This document shows, piece by piece, positions 5,275-16,851 of a stretch of 64,000 nucleotides of DNA. Positions within the stretch are counted from its first letter, which is position 1, and each line of letters opens with the position of its first letter. A program made the translations under genes and the position numbers. The stretch covers positions 124,001 through 188,000 of the forward strand of contig NZ_JOKH01000009.1 of NCBI RefSeq assembly GCF_000722635.1. Direction: 5' to 3'. This DNA is from Endozoicomonas numazuensis (GTDB lineage: Bacteria; Pseudomonadota; Gammaproteobacteria; Pseudomonadales; Endozoicomonadaceae). Below the pieces are notes generated by a model, which saw nothing but the letters and a program-made list of their open reading frames with translations, had not been told where the DNA came from and did not search any database.

Positions 5275-6357
5275 ATGAACAGCCTGAGCCCCAACCCCTC
5301 TCCTGACGTCACCAGCGATGCAGCCGTTTATGATCAATGTCATAAGCCTGATGGTATCTCTGTGACAGAAGCAAGACAGGAACCCGGTCTCAGAAGCCCC
5401 GATGTCCAGCCAGAGCATAAAGCAAAAATAACCAGAGATATCACTTTACCCGCAACTCATCCATCAAAAGCATTCAACGTCACTTTCAATTGGGCTCAAG
5501 TACCCGTAGATAACTTTGGCAAACATATTGAGCTGATTCTGGGCATATTCATGGATCTCGGGCTTTCAAAACCGGAACAAGCTGGCGTGGAGTATACTCT
5601 TCAAGCGTACAATGACAATGTTATTGCACTTCAGACCAACACCCTGCCCGATCACAGTGTCCTATCGGAGTTTGTTTATGGTGACTTAGCCAAAGAAACC
5701 AAACATTTTCCCAAGAGCCTTCAAAATGAACTCAACATGCTCAGCCTGCACTTTCGTATCCTTCAGGCTTCCGAGTTTTATAACTTTGCTTTGCTGGATA
5801 AAGAACTAATGGCTGACCTAAAAGCGTTTATCCAGGAACAGAAAGATCCCAGAGTTGAAGAGTTGATGGCCGGTTCAGGCTGGCTCAATAAGTCACTGAC
5901 AGAGCTGGGAGTCGATGTTGTCTCCAGTGATAACTTCTCACTGAGAGGAATCAGAACCGCTTTTCCAGAAGGCCTGGCCAAAGCGTTTGGAATACAGGAG
6001 CACTACCACCTTATGAGACCTGTTCCTGGAGCAACGGTAAGACAGATCAATGCCATTAATGCATTGCAGGAAAGCGATAGAAACATCGTTCTGATGTGCT
6101 ATCCAAACCCCAACCCGACCTACCTCCGCAAATTACTGGATGAAAGCAAGCGCACGGGCAAAGTGGTTATTCACATAGCTCCTGATGGGGAAAGCTTTGA
6201 CAAGCTCATTCCTTCAGAAAAATCGGGAAGTACTTTTGAAGTCCTCAAGAATGCTCCCGTTTCAAAAATCAAAACCCAGATTCTCGAGATAGGTTACTGG
6301 AAAGATCTTCCCAAGCCCTGGCAACCTGTGACTCCTAGAGCTGAACTTCCACAGTAA
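5275..6357 (+). CDS. Uncharacterised protein with a methyltransferase-like segment
   Basis: This 360-residue soluble protein matches no family I can name. The first 60 residues are polar, Pro-rich and probably disordered. Residues 65-190 look helical. Residues 193-222 (VEELMAGSGWLNKSLTELGV followed by DVVSSDNF) have the shape of a Rossmann methyltransferase motif I: a hydrophobic strand, a G-x-G-like turn (AGSGWL), a helix, then an acidic residue after the second strand. Residues about 268-282 (NIVLMCYPNPNP) resemble motif IV. A methyltransferase of unusual substrate is therefore plausible. No signal peptide or TM segment is present. It overlaps the 3' end of the opposite-strand pbpC fragment by 23 nt. 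It lies in an accessory stretch and could be a transferred or effector-type gene; that is inference. Confidence 0.75.
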   Translation: MNSLSPNPSPDVTSDAAVYDQCHKPDGISVTEARQEPGLRSPDVQPEHKAKITRDITLPATHPSKAFNVTFNWAQVPVDNFGKHIELILGIFMDLGLSKPEQAGVEYTLQAYNDNVIALQTNTLPDHSVLSEFVYGDLAKETKHFPKSLQNELNMLSLHFRILQASEFYNFALLDKELMADLKAFIQEQKDPRVEELMAGSGWLNKSLTELGVDVVSSDNFSLRGIRTAFPEGLAKAFGIQEHYHLMRPVPGATVRQINAINALQESDRNIVLMCYPNPNPTYLRKLLDESKRTGKVVIHIAPDGESFDKLIPSEKSGSTFEVLKNAPVSKIKTQILEIGYWKDLPKPWQPVTPRAELPQ

Positions 6358-7514: not shown

Positions 7515-8675
7515 TTAGGCAGCAACCGGCAGTGTGCCGGACTTACGCTGGCCTTCATCAGCAGAGACGGACAGCCCTTCCGCCTTTAACTTCAAAATGC
7601 CTTGCCGCTTTATGTTGATGGCGGCGTTAATGTCCCGATCATGGACAGCTCCACAATCACACGTCCATGACCGGACATTGAGCGGCATTTCCTCTTGCTT
7701 TCGATCACAGCAGGAACAGGTTTTTGACGAGGCAAACCACTGGTCAATTTTCACTAGATGTTTACCGGCCTGTTTCGCTTTGTAGTCGAGCTTGATGACG
7801 AAGGAATGCCAGCCTGCGTCGGCAATGGATCGGGCAAGGCAATGGTTCTTGACCTTCAGCGTCTCCACAACCACCGCTTGGTTTTCGTCAACGAGTTGTC
7901 TGGACAGTTTGTGCTGGAAGTCATTACGGGCAAAGGCGACACGCTCATGCGCCTTTGCAACAAGTAGTCTGGCCTTGGCTCTGCCTTTGGAGCCTTTCTT
8001 GCAACGGGACAGCACTTTCTGCTTGCGCTTCAGGTTTCTCTGGGCGTTCTTCAGGAATCGTGGATTACTGGTCTTCAGCCCATTGCTGGTAATGGCGATA
8101 TCGGTCAAACCGGCATCTATGCCCACAACCTTGCTGGCTTGCAGGGCAGCAACCGGTTTACTTTCTGACTGGCCATCTTCGGCAAGAATGGAAGCGTAAT
8201 ACTTGTCGCTGGCCGTTCTGGTCAAGGTGATAGACTTAACCTTCCCGGCTATCTCCCGGTGAACTCTGGCCTTGATGGGTTGGCATTCAGGTACCTTGAT
8301 CCAGTCATTGCCCACGGAAACGGAGGTGCAGTGGTAGCTACTTTGCTTACCATGCTTTGACTTGAATCGGGGAAACCGGGCTTGCAGTTTAGGGTTAAAG
8401 AAGTTCTGGAAAGCCTTGTCCAGATTGATAATGGACTGTTGCAGTGCAATCGAATCAGTCTCTTTCAGCCATGAGTACTTGCGGCTTTTCTTGGCAGTCG
8501 CCAGCAATGGCTTCAGGTCTTTTTTCGGGGAGAGGTTCTGTTCCCGTACCCTGTAGTAATGGGTCTTGATAGCCAATACCTTGTTCCACACAAAGCGCAC
8601 AGAACCGAACTGGCGATTGAGAAAATCCGCCTGTTTCGGTGTCGGGTAGATGCGTACTTTGGTGGCTTTCAGCAT
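7515..8675 (-). CDS. tnpB: RNA-guided endonuclease TnpB, IS200/IS605 family OrfB
   Basis: The 386-residue protein has the TnpB layout: an N-terminal helical domain starting KVRIYPTPKQADFLNRQFG (residues 6-24), a beta-barrel region, and a split RuvC-like nuclease with D187 (VGIDAGLTD), E271 (VVVETLKVKN) and D348 (HDRDINAA). The zinc-binding cysteines are C320/C323 and C339/C341. All catalytic residues are present, so it looks active. TnpB uses a guide RNA made from the element end overlapping the 3' end of its own gene, here about 7450-7560, to cut donor or target sites. It is transcribed away from tnpA. Confidence 0.95.
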   Translation of the reverse strand: MLKATKVRIYPTPKQADFLNRQFGSVRFVWNKVLAIKTHYYRVREQNLSPKKDLKPLLATAKKSRKYSWLKETDSIALQQSIINLDKAFQNFFNPKLQARFPRFKSKHGKQSSYHCTSVSVGNDWIKVPECQPIKARVHREIAGKVKSITLTRTASDKYYASILAEDGQSESKPVAALQASKVVGIDAGLTDIAITSNGLKTSNPRFLKNAQRNLKRKQKVLSRCKKGSKGRAKARLLVAKAHERVAFARNDFQHKLSRQLVDENQAVVVETLKVKNHCLARSIADAGWHSFVIKLDYKAKQAGKHLVKIDQWFASSKTCSCCDRKQEEMPLNVRSWTCDCGAVHDRDINAAINIKRQGILKLKAEGLSVSADEGQRKSGTLPVAA

Positions 8676-8743: not shown

Positions 8744-9184
8744 GTGAGTGTACACGATAAGGATTTACTGCATGACTACCTTCGCAGACGGCATAGTGTT
8801 ACGAAATTAGTGGTTCATCTGGTATTCACCACGAAGTACAGAAGAAAGTTGTTTGATGGCTACATGATCCAACAATTGAAGGAAGCATTTGAAAGCTCCT
8901 GCCAAAAACTGGAGTGCGATTTGCTTGAAGTGAACGGTGAACAGGATCATGTGCATCTACTCATTGCTTACCCCCCAAAGCTGGCGATCAGTGTCATGGT
9001 AAATAACTTGAAATCAGTATCGTCCAGACGGTTAAGAATGCTGAATACACACCTTATGACGCAGAGCAAATCTGGAAGGTTGTGGTCACGATCTTATTTT
9101 GCCTGTAGCGCTGGAGGTGCAACTATTGAGACATTGAATGAGACATTGAAAGAGTACGTGAACAGTCAGAGTACACCCGAATGA
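8744..9184 (+). CDS. tnpA: IS200/IS605 family Y1 transposase TnpA with a 4-residue duplication
   Basis: The 146-residue GTG-initiated protein has the single-strand transposase fold: LVFTTKYRRKLFDG, the HUH motif in QDHVHLL, and LWSRSYFACSAGGATIETL. The catalytic tyrosine lies in the last helix (KEYVNSQ). The DNA there contains a direct 12-nt duplication (gagacattgaat, gagacattgaaa), giving ETLN-ETLK where relatives normally have one copy before the Tyr. This moves the nucleophile about one helical turn from the HUH site, so activity is doubtful. The shared spacer with tnpB probably holds both promoters. Confidence 0.9.
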   Translation: MSVHDKDLLHDYLRRRHSVTKLVVHLVFTTKYRRKLFDGYMIQQLKEAFESSCQKLECDLLEVNGEQDHVHLLIAYPPKLAISVMVNNLKSVSSRRLRMLNTHLMTQSKSGRLWSRSYFACSAGGATIETLNETLKEYVNSQSTPE

Positions 9185-9256
9185 TTGAACCAACTTGCAG
9201 GCGGAACGCTCTGCGCGTTCCCGTCTTATATCCCCGCCCGCATTGGGCGAGGGTTT

Positions 9257-9797
9257 ACGACGATTTTGCTAAAGACGTCTTTTCGTTGGAGGCATCGTTT
9301 TCTTCAGGTGATCGAGCAAGATCAGGCAGAAGAGCTTTCTGGTATTGTCGAGTTAGATGAAACTCTGTTTCGGGAATCATTCAAAGGCCAGCAATCTCGC
9401 ATGCCCAGGACGTCCCGCAAACGGAGTAACGATAAAAAGCCCTTGCCGAAAATTTCCTGTAATGGTGGCTCGCGATCGTCAGTCTCAAACAGTTGATGGC
9501 CTACTGGAAACGACCAATGGTGATCAGCTCTGCAATATCTAGCATCTCTATAGAAGCTGTGATTAGAAGCTGTGATGTGTGCTGATGCACATCTTGCTCA
9601 TGAGAAACTGGCCAGAAAACCGGGGTTTACTTTCAAAGAACTGGTCAATTCAGAGGGTCAAAGAGTGCTGGATGACATTTTTCATATACAGCATGTGAAT
9701 GCTTACCACAGCCATCTCAAAAACTGGGTATCAGCAGTCTTTCACAGCGTTGCCACGAAATATCTTCATCGTTTCCAGGCTGGAGGCGACGATTGAC
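9257..9797 (+). pseudogene. IS1595-family (ISXO2-like) transposase, truncated and frameshifted
   Basis: Successive frames read TSFRWRHRFLQVIEQDQ, LSGIVELDETLFRESFKGQQ, then in a second frame VMVARDRQSQTVDGLL, and in a third CADAHLAHEKLA, VLDDIFHIQHVNAYHSHLKNW and VFHSVATKYLHRF. Together these form the DDE-type catalytic core of ISXO2-like IS1595 transposases (first Asp in ELDET, last Asn in NAYHS). The N-terminal zinc ribbon is absent, cut off at the end of the IS605-type element. At least two frameshifts and internal stops (near 9496 and 9542) break it. The following bases (to about 9880) may contain its outer end. 9880-10024 shows nothing else. Confidence 0.8.
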
Positions 9798-10024: not shown

Positions 10025-11836
10025 ATGAGAATCACTTTTATACTTCGAATAATTATCCTTCTTTCGTCGTTTTCTTTGTCAGCCGATGTAATTCATCCGG
10101 TAAAAGATGACTCAAGAACCACGCAAAACAGTTATTTTTTCGATGTATCCGAATGCGGAACATCATTTGAAATTTATAACAAAATTATCCACTTTGAGAG
10201 TGTTACTCAATCTGACTGGGATACACTATGGCAGTCTTTTGCCTATTCAGGCGTTATTGTTCCCTTAACCATTGCTTCGTCTATAAGATCGGGCATTTAT
10301 TTTTATAGGTATTTTGGTCAGTCGACTAAGCATTGGCTTTCTTATGCCGCACTTATTGCAGCGGGATATTTTTATATTGATGCTGTATTGTCAAGGCTTC
10401 TGACAATACAGAACTTGATTCTAGGGCTCTTAGAGCTAGAGCGACCTGCCCCCCTGATTGCAACAGGGGTTGCCTTACTATCAATTGCGTCAATAGAAAA
10501 AGGTGACTACCTGGGAACATTTTTCAACTCAAAGTTATATATTCTTATGCCATTAGCCGTCGTAATGGTTCGCCTTGCTGGCTTGAACTCCGATCAGGAT
10601 GACCAGCCGTATGAAATAAGACATCTTGCATTATCAGGCAACGCAGCCAGACACTTTGTGATCACAGCTGCATTCGAGCGAATCCAGAATAATCAGCACC
10701 TTTCGCAAGAGATGCCGGAAATGGCCACCTATGGACTTGACCGCATTCATTTAGACTCTGATTATGGAGAAGGTGGTGAAAATGATCCAGATAGCTATAG
10801 CCGTTTGGCACATGTAATGGACGACCTGAACCTTGTAAGCCTGATTTTAGATAGGCAAGTCAGCGAAAACCAAGAGATCGCCGTTCTTGGTGAGCGAGCC
10901 TCTGATAGAAAGCTTGTTATGTCAGGTAATATAATTCTGGAAAATAATCAGGCGTCGAAGTGGTTCAATCCACATATGACTGATGAGGATACGCGATTAA
11001 GAAGTGTTGACCGGTTCATGCTATCCCCCGATGTTATTGGTGCAATTGCAGATTATATGGAATCGAAAAGAACTTTGATTTATGCATATACAAAGCCCAA
11101 ACCACCCTCTTCTTCAGATGATTTTATTAGAAAAATGGAGGATTATGTAAAAGCGAAAGTCGGTAAAACCGGCACATATGAATATTACAACTACGACATT
11201 TTTACTTTTTCGGAGGATTTTACCAAAGAAAATCTCGGAGTCACCTTGGGTATAGATTATTCCGAAAATGATAACATCACAACATTTTTACTACCCGGCG
11301 CCCAAAAAGAGCTTGCAGCAAAACTCAGGTTTGATTTAAACAACTGGAACATAGCGTTACATATTGGTCATGAGGGTCAGGAGGATAATGTTGAGCAGTA
11401 CATTTCTCCTCTGTGGTTTAACCGTATTGTATTCACGTGCCTGAAATCTATCGGACCAAAGTATATTTATTCCTGGGTTTCAGAAGCTATTGACTACTGG
11501 CTCCCTCTTTCTAACGTCATCTATCTGAATCAGATGACCGAGTATGAAGAGGAAAACACAAATGAAGATACAAAATGCAGTACATGCTATGCCGTCATTA
11601 AAGGAAGCGTAGCCGCAAAGAAAGCCATGGAAAAAACGCCGAAAAATCATGAGCAACACCTATCGCCCGACACGCTCACCGAAGTCGATACATTACTCAA
11701 AACACACTGCGGGCACATTTTTTGCCCTTCATGTATTGACAAAATCCGGCAGACTAAAATCTCCAGAGCCAGTGATTCATGGAATTTGATTAATTTTCAT
11801 ATCAATTGTCCATACTGCCGAAATTCGATTCATTGA
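10025..11836 (+). CDS. Exported/membrane protein with C-terminal RING-type zinc-finger motif
   Basis: This 603-residue product begins with a signal-like segment (MRITFILRIIILLSSFSLSA). Three or more hydrophobic segments follow between residues about 75 and 185, then a polar region of about 330 residues of no family I recognise. The C-terminus has a cysteine/histidine pattern in RING order: C518-x2-C521, then C562-x-H564-x2-C567-x2-C570 (THCGHIFCPSCI), then C595-x2-C598 (CPYC). The loop between the first and second pairs is 40 residues, at the long end for a RING. RING folds bind two zinc ions and in eukaryotes recruit ubiquitin-conjugating enzymes. A bacterial protein with one may act on a host, or the motif may be purely structural. 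The gene is AT-rich compared with the surrounding core genes, lies beside transposase debris and is followed by a similar membrane-protein gene. Motif seen; role unknown. Confidence 0.85.
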   Translation: MRITFILRIIILLSSFSLSADVIHPVKDDSRTTQNSYFFDVSECGTSFEIYNKIIHFESVTQSDWDTLWQSFAYSGVIVPLTIASSIRSGIYFYRYFGQSTKHWLSYAALIAAGYFYIDAVLSRLLTIQNLILGLLELERPAPLIATGVALLSIASIEKGDYLGTFFNSKLYILMPLAVVMVRLAGLNSDQDDQPYEIRHLALSGNAARHFVITAAFERIQNNQHLSQEMPEMATYGLDRIHLDSDYGEGGENDPDSYSRLAHVMDDLNLVSLILDRQVSENQEIAVLGERASDRKLVMSGNIILENNQASKWFNPHMTDEDTRLRSVDRFMLSPDVIGAIADYMESKRTLIYAYTKPKPPSSSDDFIRKMEDYVKAKVGKTGTYEYYNYDIFTFSEDFTKENLGVTLGIDYSENDNITTFLLPGAQKELAAKLRFDLNNWNIALHIGHEGQEDNVEQYISPLWFNRIVFTCLKSIGPKYIYSWVSEAIDYWLPLSNVIYLNQMTEYEEENTNEDTKCSTCYAVIKGSVAAKKAMEKTPKNHEQHLSPDTLTEVDTLLKTHCGHIFCPSCIDKIRQTKISRASDSWNLINFHINCPYCRNSIH

Positions 11837-11859
11837 TATCGTGGTACACGGGTTTTCTC

Positions 11860-13272
11860 ATGAAAGTTTATTTCTTGTGTGATGCTACCTCACCGTTTTT
11901 TCGACGAAATACTCTATATGTATTTATCGCTCTGCTGACTCTGCTTGCAACCAGCTCAGGCTGGGCACACACTGCCCCATCATTACAAAACCAGCCAGAC
12001 ACTGACGAGGTTTCAGAAAACGCAACGATTTGTTTTTCAGAACTCCAACAACTACTGGGATCAGAACAGGCCGGTCTGTCAGATGACAATGAGCCAGTAA
12101 CGGCAGAAAAGCTTAACCTCCTGATTTCAGCCATAGAAGACCAGATTCAGAACATCTCTGCCTGCACTACCTTTATGCAAGAGTATGAAAGTCTTTTAGT
12201 TCAGGAAGAAGAATATTTTGATAAGGAAGAATTACTAAAATACATCCCACATCTTTCACCATCCCCATCAACACAGATGGACTGGCTGGAGTGGGGCCAA
12301 GGGATAGCTTATAACTCTGCTCACTCAGTTATGAGTCAATATTGGCAAAACAGCCCCGGGATTAGCATTCTCAGCAGCATTGCCAGCAAGCTCAGAAGCA
12401 ATATTAACTATTATTATAAATCGTACAGAGCAAAACAGAAACCTAAGAAAGCACCTTATAGCGGTTATTTTACGAACTGTTTTCTGAAAAAAAATCTCGA
12501 CGTCTGTTTTTACAGCTCGTGGGTGGTTCACTCTTTAACATTAATGGCTTCGGCTACCGTTGCTTATACGAGCTATCGTCTTATGGACTACGGCGGAGGA
12601 TATATTCCTTCCAATGCTTTTATGGTAATGGCAGTGGTTGCAAACAGTCTGAGTTTTTCCTGGTGGCCAGACCTTTTTAGCTTTGGATTTATTGGTAGCC
12701 TTACGGCTCAGACCTATTTTATGCTCGCTGACAAGCATCGGTTGATGATAAATTCGAAAAAAATGTTGCAGATGTATTCGGCGTCTTTTTTCCTTAATGA
12801 CGCAATATTAGTATTCCTGAGAAGCCTTTATACAGGCTTCTGGCACAGTGCTCTGCTCGACTCACCCATTCAGCTGACTATTACCAGCTTTATCGCATTG
12901 CGCTCGTTAATCTCTTATGTAAGAAATATTGATAGCAGGGAGGCCATTTTTTTACCAATAGCTGATGGAAAAACAACCTCGTATACGATCATGGCTGCCG
13001 CCGCTTTATTTTATCATATCCAAACGCCTTTCATGCACTGGCACCTGGCTTACATGTACGGCGGGTTGATCTTTAATTCATTGGTCACCAGTAGTAATTT
13101 AAACACCGTTATACCGGTGCTGACTCATTCTCTTATGTTCACATTTCACTTCGCTAACAACTTAAGAGTACATGCTGTTGACGTTATAGAGGAATTCGAC
13201 AAAATCTCTTATTTTATCTACAACATTATCCTCCCTCCTGCCATAATTTTTGGTTTGCTTGACCGCCGATAA
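11860..13272 (+). CDS. Exported polytopic membrane protein, unknown
   Basis: I choose the ATG at 11860 (470 residues), 23 nt after the preceding stop. The frame opens at 11806, but that would overlap the RING gene and add a non-signal leader. The N-terminus is MKVYFLCDATSPFFRRNTLY followed by VFIALLTLLATSSGWAHTA, a signal peptide or anchor. Residues about 40-220 are acidic then Tyr/Ser-rich. From about residue 235 onward there are at least six hydrophobic segments (SLTLMASATVAYTSYRL, AFMVMAVVANSLSF, and others). No family recognised. Its size, signal, AT-rich coding and tandem position suggest it is co-transcribed and works with the RING-motif protein. Confidence 0.8.
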   Translation: MKVYFLCDATSPFFRRNTLYVFIALLTLLATSSGWAHTAPSLQNQPDTDEVSENATICFSELQQLLGSEQAGLSDDNEPVTAEKLNLLISAIEDQIQNISACTTFMQEYESLLVQEEEYFDKEELLKYIPHLSPSPSTQMDWLEWGQGIAYNSAHSVMSQYWQNSPGISILSSIASKLRSNINYYYKSYRAKQKPKKAPYSGYFTNCFLKKNLDVCFYSSWVVHSLTLMASATVAYTSYRLMDYGGGYIPSNAFMVMAVVANSLSFSWWPDLFSFGFIGSLTAQTYFMLADKHRLMINSKKMLQMYSASFFLNDAILVFLRSLYTGFWHSALLDSPIQLTITSFIALRSLISYVRNIDSREAIFLPIADGKTTSYTIMAAAALFYHIQTPFMHWHLAYMYGGLIFNSLVTSSNLNTVIPVLTHSLMFTFHFANNLRVHAVDVIEEFDKISYFIYNIILPPAIIFGLLDRR

Positions 13273-13445
13273 AATTATTTTCTGAAGAGGGCTGCCGTGC
13301 TGCGAAGGGTAGTGCTGTGTCCCTTGACAGAGGGGAGGCTCATATGTGTTATCTGCGCTTTCTAATTTGTTGGCAATTCTAACGAACTATTTGACTGTTT
13401 TAAGATCAAAAATTAATAAAGTGATAACATATTAGGATGTCGACT

Positions 13446-13790
13446 ATGAATTTTTTGACAATCAGTTCTTTGACCCAAGTTGCAGCTACTGTTTGTAAGA
13501 ATACTTTCGGTTGCTCTGGTAATGTTATGAAGGTCTATGAAAAGGAGCGTGATCTACTTTCTAAGCCATTAACGCCAGATAATGTTAATAAATTAATAAA
13601 GTGTGAAAATCATGCGGCTATATATGGATCAGGAAAATCTATTCAAGACAGAATGGCCATAGCATTTGTGCCTATCAGATACTTTATTGCTCATAGTGCA
13701 GCATATTTGTTAGTGACTTCACATGAAGGTTTTTTTAGTGACAACAGATATTCCAAAGAAAGTTTTCTTCACTTAATCGAAAACTTCTAG
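13446..13790 (+). CDS. Small unknown protein
   Basis: This 114-residue frame starts at the ATG at 13446, preceded by AGGA about 8 nt upstream; an in-frame ATG at 13437 has no such site. The protein contains CKNTFGCSGNVMKVYEKERD, a polar middle and a moderately hydrophobic stretch (MAIAFVPIRYFIAHSAAYLL) near residues 70-90. No family recognised. It lies alone between the membrane-protein pair and the long repeat protein and has the same AT-rich style, so it may belong to the same island. Confidence 0.5.
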   Translation: MNFLTISSLTQVAATVCKNTFGCSGNVMKVYEKERDLLSKPLTPDNVNKLIKCENHAAIYGSGKSIQDRMAIAFVPIRYFIAHSAAYLLVTSHEGFFSDNRYSKESFLHLIENF

Positions 13791-14128: not shown

Positions 14129-16720
14129 CTATTGAATTGAAATCACCCACAATGGTTTGTTGGCTTTTTTTGATGCAGTGATAAGAAACGAAAGAGGAGC
14201 AGTCTGGGTTTTACTTGGCTCAAGGTCCAGTATGTCTAAAACCGCTTCTGAGGGGGTCGGCTTATAAGTTGATGTGTAGGGTTGCTTTGGCTCAATGGCT
14301 AATACCAGTCTGCGAACAAGGCTGTCATCAACTGGCCGCGTCAATATCTTTGCAAGAACATATTTCCCTGCTTTTCGAAGCGACATTCCCGACCAGGCAA
14401 CCGGATTAAAGACAGTTCCTGCAAGCCCCTTCTGGTATTCAAACCAGAAACTTGCATGCCAGGCCATGGCAGCCTGAGTTCTCTTCCAGTCCCGGGTCAG
14501 ATCAATCCCTTCAGGCAGATCGAGAATAAATGCTACAAACCACTGAGTGAAAGCTCGATCCGTCAGTGTGTTAAAAAAGCCTCTGGTATCTGGCTTAATC
14601 AGCATTCTTGCCTTGTGCCTTTCGCTCGTTGTGAGCGACTGGTTGTGATGTGAGCCTGCAATCGTCCAACGGGACTCAGGTTGATCCTGATCATCTATTA
14701 AAAAAGTACTGAAATGGTAAAAGCTCATAGGCTGAGACAATTTAAGGGTCTCTAATAGCAATAAGCCTTCAGCATACTTTTCGGCAGATAGACCCGCTTC
14801 AGCATACAACTGCGCTACAGCCTCCCAGCGACCATAAGACTTTGGTTGAGTATCTTCAGAATCAGAAAGTTCAGGCAAGGAAAGTAACCGGGGAATCACA
14901 TAAGCAGCACAGGCAATAAATACACCCCCAATAGCCAGGTATGATACGCGGTTTTTGAAAATTCTGGGGAGCTGGAACGGGTTATTTTGTTGAGCGACTT
15001 TTGCTGCAGCAACTGTCCCGGTTTTGAGAAGGTCAGTGCCGCTTTCAGTGCTTAAGCTTGAACGTTGATCAAGGTGTTCACCTGTGTTCCCGACAGGCAT
15101 GAGGGGTTCCTGATCTTTCAGTGGCTGACCATTAAAGCTGTCAGAAATGATATCGTTCGTTAGTAGCTCATTCAAAATCACTTTGCTCAACAGCTCAGTC
15201 TCACTTTCAACCTTTTCGCTCTCTTGTGTTGAGGTCGTTTGTCGTTCTTTATTTTCACTATCCTCACCACTTTCAATCACTGGATCAATCACTGGATCAA
15301 TCGCAGCCTGAACAAACTCACCTGCAGTTATGTCGTCATCGCCCCCCACTAAGTCAGTCTCAGTACTTGTAGACGTAAGGCTATATCCAGTACCTGTATT
15401 ATCGAGGGTTTTTTTCTCTGAACTGTTTGTAAACAAACGATCGGGGGACTCTAGTGGTTTATCTTCATTATATAAACTGCTTGCTGTCGAAACTGTCGCT
15501 GGAGGAATAGGCGGTACAGATGTAGCTGTATTATGACTAGCGGGCGAGTCGCTGATCCCAAGTGCTCTTTTATACGCTTCCATTGCGACGGGATCATCGG
15601 GGTCCGGAAAATCATCTATTGGCATAAAATCAGTTTCTGCATAATCCGTTACAGGATTGCTGAAAACATTAGTCCTCTTGAGTTGACTGTTTTTCGTTTT
15701 TTTAGGTGTCTCTTTATCCTTTACAGGCTTATCCTTTACAGGCTTATCCTTTACAGGCTTACCCTTTACAGGCTTACCCTTTACAGGCTTATCCTTTACA
15801 GGCTTATCCTTTGGAGGAGGATCATCCTGTAATATTGGTTCAGAGGGTGGATTTGACGATTTTTTTTCTTCCACGATCTCTTCTTTTGGTGACGGGTTTT
15901 CTTCCAGAGCTTTATCTTCAGGAGGTTTCTGGTCATCGTTTTGAGGCTGTGAAACAGGCTCATTCGGTTGAGGTTGAGGTTGAGGCTGAGGTTGAGGCTG
16001 AGGCTGAGGCTGAGGCTGAGGTTGAGGTTGAGGTTGAGGCTGAGGTTGAGACTGAGGTTGAGACTGAGGCTGAGGTTGAGTCTGAGGTTGAGGTTGAGTC
16101 TGAGGTTGAGGTTGAGACTGAGGTTGAGGCTGAGGCTGAGGCTGAGGCTGAGGCTGAGGCTGAGGTTGAGATTGAGGTAGAGGTAGAGGTAGAGGTAGAG
16201 GTAGAGGTAGAGGTAGAGGTAGAGGTAGAGGTAGAGGTTGAGGTTGAGGTTGAGGTTGAGGTTGAGGTTGAGGTTGAGGTTGAGGTTGAGGTAGAGGTTG
16301 AGGCTGAGCTAGAGCTAGAGCTAGAGGTAGAGGTAGAGGTTGAGGCTGAAGCCAGCTCTGGGTAACTCCATTCAGAGTGCCACTTTCTGTCAGATGGAGC
16401 TGATAAAGAAAACCATTCTGCAAACTCGTTAAGAGGCTAAACGCCGGATTAGCAGCAACTTCAGGTGAGGTACGTATGCTGTCTAAGAGAGTCGGTGTAT
16501 CTGGATGTGGGCAGAAAAGGTAAATATGTCCAGGTATTAAAAAGGCCATGAACAAATGTACAGAATCAGTTCTGCATTTCTCAGCTACGTGTTTCGCTAA
16601 TGACTGTAACGGCAAGGGGACCTTATTAATATCGTCAAAATATATAACTCCGCCAGAGTTAACCGAATTACTTATTAGTAGTAATGCCAGTGACAGGAGC
16701 AAGCAGCGCCATCTCAACAT
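14129..16720 (-). CDS. Exported protein with long Gln-Pro/Leu-Pro and Lys-Pro-Val-Lys repeats
   Basis: I start at the ATG at 16720 (863 residues), giving the signal sequence MLRWRCLLLSLALLLISNSV. The frame extends to 16834, but that adds an unlikely Tyr/Phe-rich leader. Order: a short N-terminal domain with two Cys (residues about 22-120); a low-complexity tract of QP, LP, SQP and TQP dipeptides (about 123-252); an acidic Pro/Lys region; six KPVK(D/G) repeats (about 305-335); an acidic Ser/Thr-rich spacer; one hydrophobic segment YLAIGGVFIACAAYVIP near 590; and a folded C-terminal domain of about 250 residues with many Trp and Phe. A proline-rich rigid spacer between an N-terminal domain and a membrane-anchored domain resembles cell-envelope-spanning or adhesin-type proteins. 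No family recognised. The hexameric DNA repeats allow in-frame length change. Confidence 0.8.
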   Translation of the reverse strand: MLRWRCLLLSLALLLISNSVNSGGVIYFDDINKVPLPLQSLAKHVAEKCRTDSVHLFMAFLIPGHIYLFCPHPDTPTLLDSIRTSPEVAANPAFSLLTSLQNGFLYQLHLTESGTLNGVTQSWLQPQPLPLPLALALAQPQPLPQPQPQPQPQPQPQPQPQPLPLPLPLPLPLPLPLPLPLPQSQPQPQPQPQPQPQPQPQSQPQPQTQPQPQTQPQPQSQPQSQPQPQPQPQPQPQPQPQPQPQPQPQPQPNEPVSQPQNDDQKPPEDKALEENPSPKEEIVEEKKSSNPPSEPILQDDPPPKDKPVKDKPVKGKPVKGKPVKDKPVKDKPVKDKETPKKTKNSQLKRTNVFSNPVTDYAETDFMPIDDFPDPDDPVAMEAYKRALGISDSPASHNTATSVPPIPPATVSTASSLYNEDKPLESPDRLFTNSSEKKTLDNTGTGYSLTSTSTETDLVGGDDDITAGEFVQAAIDPVIDPVIESGEDSENKERQTTSTQESEKVESETELLSKVILNELLTNDIISDSFNGQPLKDQEPLMPVGNTGEHLDQRSSLSTESGTDLLKTGTVAAAKVAQQNNPFQLPRIFKNRVSYLAIGGVFIACAAYVIPRLLSLPELSDSEDTQPKSYGRWEAVAQLYAEAGLSAEKYAEGLLLLETLKLSQPMSFYHFSTFLIDDQDQPESRWTIAGSHHNQSLTTSERHKARMLIKPDTRGFFNTLTDRAFTQWFVAFILDLPEGIDLTRDWKRTQAAMAWHASFWFEYQKGLAGTVFNPVAWSGMSLRKAGKYVLAKILTRPVDDSLVRRLVLAIEPKQPYTSTYKPTPSEAVLDILDLEPSKTQTAPLSFLITASKKANKPLWVISIQ
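15716..15805 (-). repeat. Six 15-bp tandem repeats inside the repeat-protein gene
   Basis: Six consecutive 15-bp units (ATCCTTTACAGGCTT, two of them beginning ACCC) encode KPVKD/KPVKG on the minus strand. Units are nearly identical at the DNA level, which suggests recent expansion. Five-codon units keep the frame when copy number changes. Confidence 0.9.
15968..16349 (-). repeat. Hexanucleotide tandem-repeat tract (about 60 units)
   Basis: The plus strand shows runs of GGTTGA, GGCTGA and GGTAGA, read on the minus strand as TCAACC/TCAGCC/TCTACC and encoding Gln-Pro and Leu-Pro dipeptides. Variant hexamers are clustered in blocks (a homogeneous GGTAGA block at about 16175-16235 and a GGTTGA block at about 16236-16290), the pattern expected from slippage or unequal exchange. 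Being multiples of 3, copy changes alter spacer length without breaking the frame. Confidence 0.92.
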
Positions 16721-16851
16721 AGCGACCCTCAAATAAAAATAAAAATAAAAATTAATGTTCATTTTTAAATGATTCATTGTAGCTTGATTGAGCATTACTG
16801 CCTGTGCAGGGGTTTCTAAATGATAAAATTGCAAGGTAGGTAAGTTTGTAA

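Follow-up and report, generated by a model that had tools for sequence, protein, structure and literature searches.

A stretch of 64,000 nucleotides from the 6.34 Mb genome of Endozoicomonas numazuensis (contig NZ_JOKH01000009.1, positions 124,001 to 188,000; G000:C9:124001-188000 in our numbering; hereafter the window) carries two adjacent genes, A (10025..11836, forward strand) and B (11860..13272, forward strand), which may constitute an exported, membrane-associated effector cassette that resembles RING-type ubiquitin ligases (E3s) and is aimed at host ubiquitin. We regard this reading as evenly poised between right and wrong, and its odds rest on the conservation of the zinc ligands in A and on the context of the family Endozoicomonadaceae. 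Gene A is an intact open reading frame (ORF) of 603 residues encoding an exported-looking RING-finger protein, with orthologues in three further genomes of the genus and, in a second genus, five homologues of divergent sequence. Gene B encodes a partner protein of 470 residues with a signal-peptide-like start and several marginally hydrophobic segments, and it adjoins A at every one of the four loci where the genus has A. The coordinates given in the initial annotation were reproduced, with the ATG of B at 11860 following the stop codon of A after a gap of 23 nt.

The C-terminus of A forms a RING finger of C3HC4 order (residues 518-598; 11576..11818, forward strand), identified by its ligand pattern, its conservation, and its profile and structure neighbours in Pfam and the PDB. 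All eight ligands lie at the positions first proposed (C518, C521, C562, H564, C567, C570, C595 and C598). A loose RING pattern permitting a C2-C3 gap of up to 45 residues never arose when the whole protein was shuffled 200,000 times and arose once in as many shuffles of the last 104 residues; among the 329 window ORFs of at least 60 residues it was found in A only. The classical RING has a C2-C3 gap of 9-39 residues, so that the 40 residues of the window RING lie just beyond this range.

Profile searches with RING families gave a divided result. The window copy scores under every Pfam cut-off, with the XB3/XBAT31 RING as its best match, and among the Prok-RING models only PF14447 is listed for it, at 10.6 bits against a cut-off of 27. 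On the other side, the RING of the orthologue in genome G020 exceeds the Pfam zf-C3HC4 cut-off (23.0 versus 21), and a second-genus homologue (locus L037) exceeds those of PF13445 and PF00097. Against PDB profiles, the window RING matched TRAF6 best (E 0.022), and the G020 RING matched RNF126 (E 0.007) and RNF4 (E 2.1e-6, for a chain with two RNF4 RINGs, the best single stretch having E 0.05). PDB profile searches with A1 and A2 returned nothing convincing (best E 0.056 and 0.17); an entry at E 0.10 in the A1 list is presumably the RING-bearing TFIIH subunit. A structure model of residues 496-603 was of low confidence and placed the first two cysteines in a helix; nearly all the neighbours that Foldseek and VIA-align gave for it are nonetheless RING domains, with weak scores. 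Among the best 50 of 62 Foldseek matches, 47 are RING or RING-bearing chains by title, with RBX1 assumed to be the matched chain for some cullin complexes. The cross-brace fold expected for residues 505-603 stays putative.

The residues that would contact the ubiquitin-conjugating enzyme (E2) differ among the copies of A. RING E3s usually carry a hydrophobic E2-contact residue between the first two cysteines, the proline of the last CPxC and a basic linchpin behind the last cysteine. The window RING has a non-hydrophobic residue, Thr520, at the contact position, where the orthologues in G020, G026 and G027 have valine. The last CPxC and the following residue read CPYCR in the window copy and CPMCR in G020, and CPTCN, without the arginine, in both G026 and G027. 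Valine and arginine are thus combined in the G020 RING only, the window copy having Thr and Arg and the G026 and G027 copies Val and Asn. Given these differences, ligase activity may vary among the A copies.

Genes A and B stand side by side in 4 of 38 genomes of the family, all from the genus of the window (G000, G020, G026 and G027, the last corresponding to Endozoicomonas sp. ISHI1). Although the orthologues of A share no more than 23-27% identity with the window protein, all eight ligands are invariant in the four proteins, which upholds the Cys/His conservation on which the RING assignment was said to depend. Between G026 and G027, which hold the two closest orthologues, the RING shows 3 changes in 79 residues versus 101 in 496 elsewhere (Fisher p 1.1e-4), and the most conserved of the 497 possible 79-residue windows of A is the RING itself. 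For the same two genomes, the ratio of nonsynonymous to synonymous substitution rates (dN/dS) is 0.57 when all of A is taken and 0.16 in the RING, and two flanking genes have 0.10 apiece. In addition, the synonymous divergence (dS) of the A-B pair is about 0.15, versus about 0.55 in two flanking genes (L011:5838-9102, L012:6700-10018), suggesting that the cassette was exchanged recently between lineages.

An order-wide draw of 293 genomes gave matches in three, all of the window's genus; the other known carriers, G020 and the second-genus genomes G032, G035 and G036, are not among these matches and were presumably not drawn. In a scan of genome contigs for relatives beyond the family, the window protein gave 12 pattern matches, none of which was confirmed, and the alignment gave one relative, ISHI1. 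The plasmid scan found no relatives, and none of 105 pattern matches in viral contigs was confirmed. A search of its own genome with the whole A protein yielded no convincing paralogue (second match E 0.43). Matches in G001 and G006 (loci L042 and L041) are confined to the RING end of the profile, and the count of A homologues leaves them out.

The homologues in the second genus weigh against the conservation of the RING. Of its five A homologues (L035 to L039), the one in L037 alone has a complete ligand set, with the first pair spaced as C-x4-C, and after trimming and realignment this pair is still not aligned in both columns. The homologue in L038 lacks the ligand histidine, the one in L035 retains a partial RING, the one in L036 is truncated with the RING missing, and the one in L039 has no RING and is itself weakly related (E 5e-5). 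The L035, L038 and L039 proteins gave no Pfam RING match at E<=0.01, and a profile search with gene B found nothing in the second-genus genomes that hold A homologues.

Both proteins begin with features of Sec-type signal peptides, as the initial annotation had noticed. With a home-made rule (a charged n-region, a hydrophobic core and a small-residue c-region, applied from hand-chosen start codons), a signal peptide was assigned to about residues 1-22 of A (10025..10090, forward strand), and signal-peptide-like starts were found in 9/9 A and 5/5 B proteins, the latter being four B proteins and one G020 paralogue, versus 47 of 202 background ORFs. The description of the proteins as polytopic, with several transmembrane segments, has little support. 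Besides the signal, A and B each have one 19-residue window with a Kyte-Doolittle value of at least 1.6, versus six in each of three control ORFs of the window resembling NqrB, NqrD and NqrE, which we take to be Na+-NQR-like from reading their sequences. Hydrophobic segments are present in A at residues 118-136, 142-160 and 171-189 (10376..10591, forward strand) but are marginal (1.54, 1.27 and 1.65), so that the attachment of the RING to a bacterial membrane protein stands in a weak form. An approximate insertion-energy scan of the nine A and five B proteins placed no segment except the signal peptide below zero. The scan is a coarse one: of the segments listed for the three controls it puts only 1, 2 and 4 below zero, with 4, 5 and 5 under a value of 1, and certain A and B signal peptides also come out above zero. 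The central region of A (about residues 201-512; 10625..11560, forward strand) is partly common to the second-genus homologues. A full-length AlphaFold model of A built on four sequences was poor, with a predicted local distance difference test (pLDDT) score of 40.8 and a predicted template modelling (pTM) score of 0.30.

Cysteine pairs outside the RING bear on the location of the two proteins. Gene A of G020, G026 and G027 encodes a C-x5-C pair, both cysteines of which are absent from the window copy. In B, the pair C207/C216 (12478..12507, forward strand) is invariant in 4/4 proteins and is a possible disulfide; its C-x8-C spacing is also visible in both B paralogues of G020. These pairs fit disulfides, and the soluble parts of A and B would thus be extracytoplasmic. 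The two paralogues (L040:5912-7162 and 10053-10610), one of them short, have no gene A alongside. Gene B itself matched nothing in Pfam (E<=1), NCBIfam (E<=0.001), PADLOC or PHROGs (both E<=0.1).

The family context is that of a broad RING expansion. PF13639 RING matches at E<=0.01 are present in 36 of 38 family genomes, with up to 111 per genome, and in none of 14 control genomes, with counts for G011, G020, G027 and G028 being lower bounds from partly scored candidates; 35 of the 38 have matches above the Pfam cut-off. At E<=1, five of the 14 controls also give matches, all of them short of the cut-off. The premise that RING motifs are rare in bacteria accordingly holds for the controls and fails for this family. 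The genome of the window itself has three matches at E<=0.01, A included. In G026, a tandem array (L083-L088; G026:C1:4730001-4850000) contains large ORFs, mostly of about 800-1200 residues, with a signal-like start and a RING-H2 finger, and 29 of its 33 RING ORFs that are uncut at the 5' side satisfy the signal rule. One array ORF that was scanned, L083:3593, combines RING-H2 with WD40 repeats. Another ORF, L088:15657, combines RING with a CHY match just under the cut-off (28.1 of 31.3 bits); its start looks hydrophobic but fails the signal rule. ORFs with CHY+RING-like ends lie at both ends of the array stretch. The genome of the window also holds an ORF of 2612 residues (L101:7582-15420, contig C5) whose start looks signal-like by eye and whose C-terminus carries a BIR and a RING domain, both above the cut-off, an inhibitor-of-apoptosis-like pair.

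A sample of 40 further hand-picked regions yielded 38 RING ORFs, spread over 34 of the regions, and only 5 of the 38 satisfy the signal rule, so export would be a recurring rather than a general trait of the family's RING proteins. Of the 33 that fail the rule, 27 carry the RING within their first 100 residues. Two small ORFs (L129 and L136; 158 and 170 residues) resemble a signal peptide joined directly to a RING-H2 finger. The wider proposal that Endozoicomonadaceae deliver a Sec-dependent arsenal of eukaryotic-type RING ubiquitin ligases (RING+WD40, CHY+RING, BIR+RING, tiny signal-peptide+RING proteins and the A-B pair) by periplasmic export instead of injection is tentative, and we incline against it. 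In such an arsenal a type II secretion system or vesicles would perhaps provide the exit, with the A-B pair as the member that docks to a membrane. The secretins of the window's genome comprise three GspD (type II), one PilQ and one SctC (type III).

For the A-B pair, the favoured sequence of events would be as follows. A and B would form a conserved two-gene Endozoicomonas cassette, and both products would leave the cytoplasm by way of Sec-type signal peptides. The weak helices of A would allow it to cross the inner membrane and to associate later with another membrane, with B serving as its membrane partner. The RING would then act outside the bacterial cytoplasm, most probably on an animal host-cell membrane, where it would bind host E2~ubiquitin and modify host or symbiont-surface proteins. 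That the two proteins are really exported, cross the outer membrane and reach the host is putative, as are E2 binding, ligase activity and the part played by B. The suggestion of a host-directed ubiquitin ligase made from the motif alone is favoured by the RING expansion and by the exported-looking RING proteins with WD40, CHY or BIR partners, while its activity and delivery keep their putative status. The effector reading also draws on the GspD and SctC secretin genes of the window's genome and on SopB/IpgD-like T3SS effector genes near two A homologues.

The strongest competitor, which we rate as distinctly the weaker of the two, is an envelope zinc module, in which the two proteins make up a complex of the bacterium's own in the inner membrane or the periplasm, and the RING is a structural zinc scaffold that docks B or another partner and has no ligase activity. 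The signal-peptide-like starts of both proteins, the cysteine pairs, which fit an oxidising compartment, the co-occurrence of A and B in 4/4 loci, the threonine at the E2 position of the window RING and the asparagine replacing arginine in G026 and G027 would all suit such a module. However, the distribution is patchy, with the strict pair in 4 of the 38 genomes of the family and matches in 3 of the 293 drawn from the order. Low GC content and fast evolution of the whole protein (dN/dS of 0.57 versus 0.10 in two flanking genes) are unlike a housekeeping envelope complex, and the host is indicated by the wealth of RING domains in the family, joined to WD40, CHY and BIR partners of host type. 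It is less probable still that A is injected by a type III secretion system (T3SS) or another injection machine, its N-terminal stretch being a membrane segment and not a Sec signal, and its weak helices being typical of membrane-inserting effectors. The genome of the window has the SctC secretin, and SopB/IpgD-like inositol phosphatase genes, likened to T3SS effectors, lie close to two second-genus A homologues (L035:2952-5075 and L038:9526-11529; NF011905 E 3e-74 and 2e-91, under its equivalog cut-off). Moreover, the transmembrane segments of T3SS and type IV secretion system (T4SS) effectors lie mostly just under the hydrophobicity for inner-membrane targeting, according to the available part of the source (PMC6110835). 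The recurrence of n-region, core and c-region in 9/9 A and 5/5 B proteins speaks against injection, and the cysteine pairs suggest a periplasmic passage.

That the RING-fold domain faces the bacterial cytoplasm and serves there in protein interaction or defence, for example with a bacterial ubiquitin-like system, appears very unlikely. The C-terminus would come to lie inside if the membrane spans were odd in number; against this, A, B and two neighbouring ORFs gave no PADLOC match at E<=0.1, the three proteins searched gave no PHROGs match, and the cysteine pairs argue against a cytoplasmic location. As for a mere chance arrangement of cysteines, the window copy does score under the Pfam cut-offs, but the empty shuffles of the whole protein and the invariance of the ligands in all four orthologues leave practically no room for it, and we reject it.

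Genes A and B are AT-rich as first reported, with GC contents of 0.406 (A) and 0.418 (B) versus 0.479 in the remaining window. Of the transposase debris said to adjoin them, an IS200 TnpA (8744-9184) and an IS605 TnpB (7515-8675) were recovered upstream of A, but the ORF at 9185-9496 has no Pfam match and debris at that place was not confirmed. Promoter-like sites were at or below the shuffle level (8 versus 10.0), and terminator-like sites exceeded it (7 versus 2.9, standard deviation 1.7). From their spacing and linkage, A and B are likely, though not assured, to be on a single transcript, as a weak terminator-like site (5 pairs) in the A-B gap leaves room for doubt. Convergent to the pair lies an ORF of 901 residues (14129-16834, reverse strand) with a long Gln-Pro repeat and, by eye, an inner signal-like start; it has no convincing Pfam match. 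The flanking ORFs at 5275-6357 (360 residues) and 13437-13790 (117 residues) are also without a Pfam match.

Compared with known systems, A resembles eukaryotic C3HC4 RING E3s of the RNF4, TRAF6 and XB3/XBAT31 types in its eight ligands in RING order, in the CPxC and, in the window copy, in the arginine after the last cysteine. It differs from them in the terminal position of the RING on a bacterial exported-looking protein, and, in the window copy, in the 40-residue C2-C3 gap and the threonine at the E2 contact. RING proteins also occur in the symbiont Cardinium hertigii, which belongs to another bacterial group than Endozoicomonas. Its candidate effector CAHE_p0026 has a RING domain and is suggested to act on host ubiquitination; it shares with A the status of a RING protein of a symbiotic bacterium and differs in its ankyrin repeats and in that the portion of the paper at hand mentions no signal peptide on it (PMC5698495). 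The membrane-inserting T3SS and T4SS effectors in the accessible text of Krampen et al. (2018, PMC6110835) have in common with A weakly hydrophobic segments meant for another membrane, but they use T3SS or T4SS signals, whereas A and B have Sec-like signal peptides.

Within Endozoicomonas, clades A1 and B are described as sharing a single eukaryotic-like domain, the RING-type zinc finger, and clade B as having a RING+CHY gene, in the text available to us (Ide et al. 2022, PMC9743535). These RING domains come from the same genus as the A-B pair, and ISHI1, a carrier of the pair, belongs to clade B. The main text of that paper, as available, has no occurrence of "signal peptide" or "transmembrane" and names neither a membrane-associated RING family nor the A-B pair. 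A run of consecutive WD40 genes is reported in 'Ca. E. penghunesis' 4G in the part of the source seen (PMC9426584). No published account of the A-B pair or of signal peptides on the family's RING proteins was found in a search that covered neither preprints, most subscription papers nor supplements. RING domains in Endozoicomonas are hence already in print, and the A-B pair is classed here as a new form of bacterial RING-E3-like protein.

In summary, the A-B pair represents an exported-looking RING family in which the zinc finger is conserved while the remaining protein evolves fast. To our knowledge, bacterial ubiquitin-ligase effectors enter their targets through injection by secretion systems of type III or IV. 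If the effector reading is true, common symbionts of marine animals, in a genus known from corals, would reach the host ubiquitin system by a route other than injection, and A would offer a concrete, testable molecule for the life of Endozoicomonas in animal tissue.

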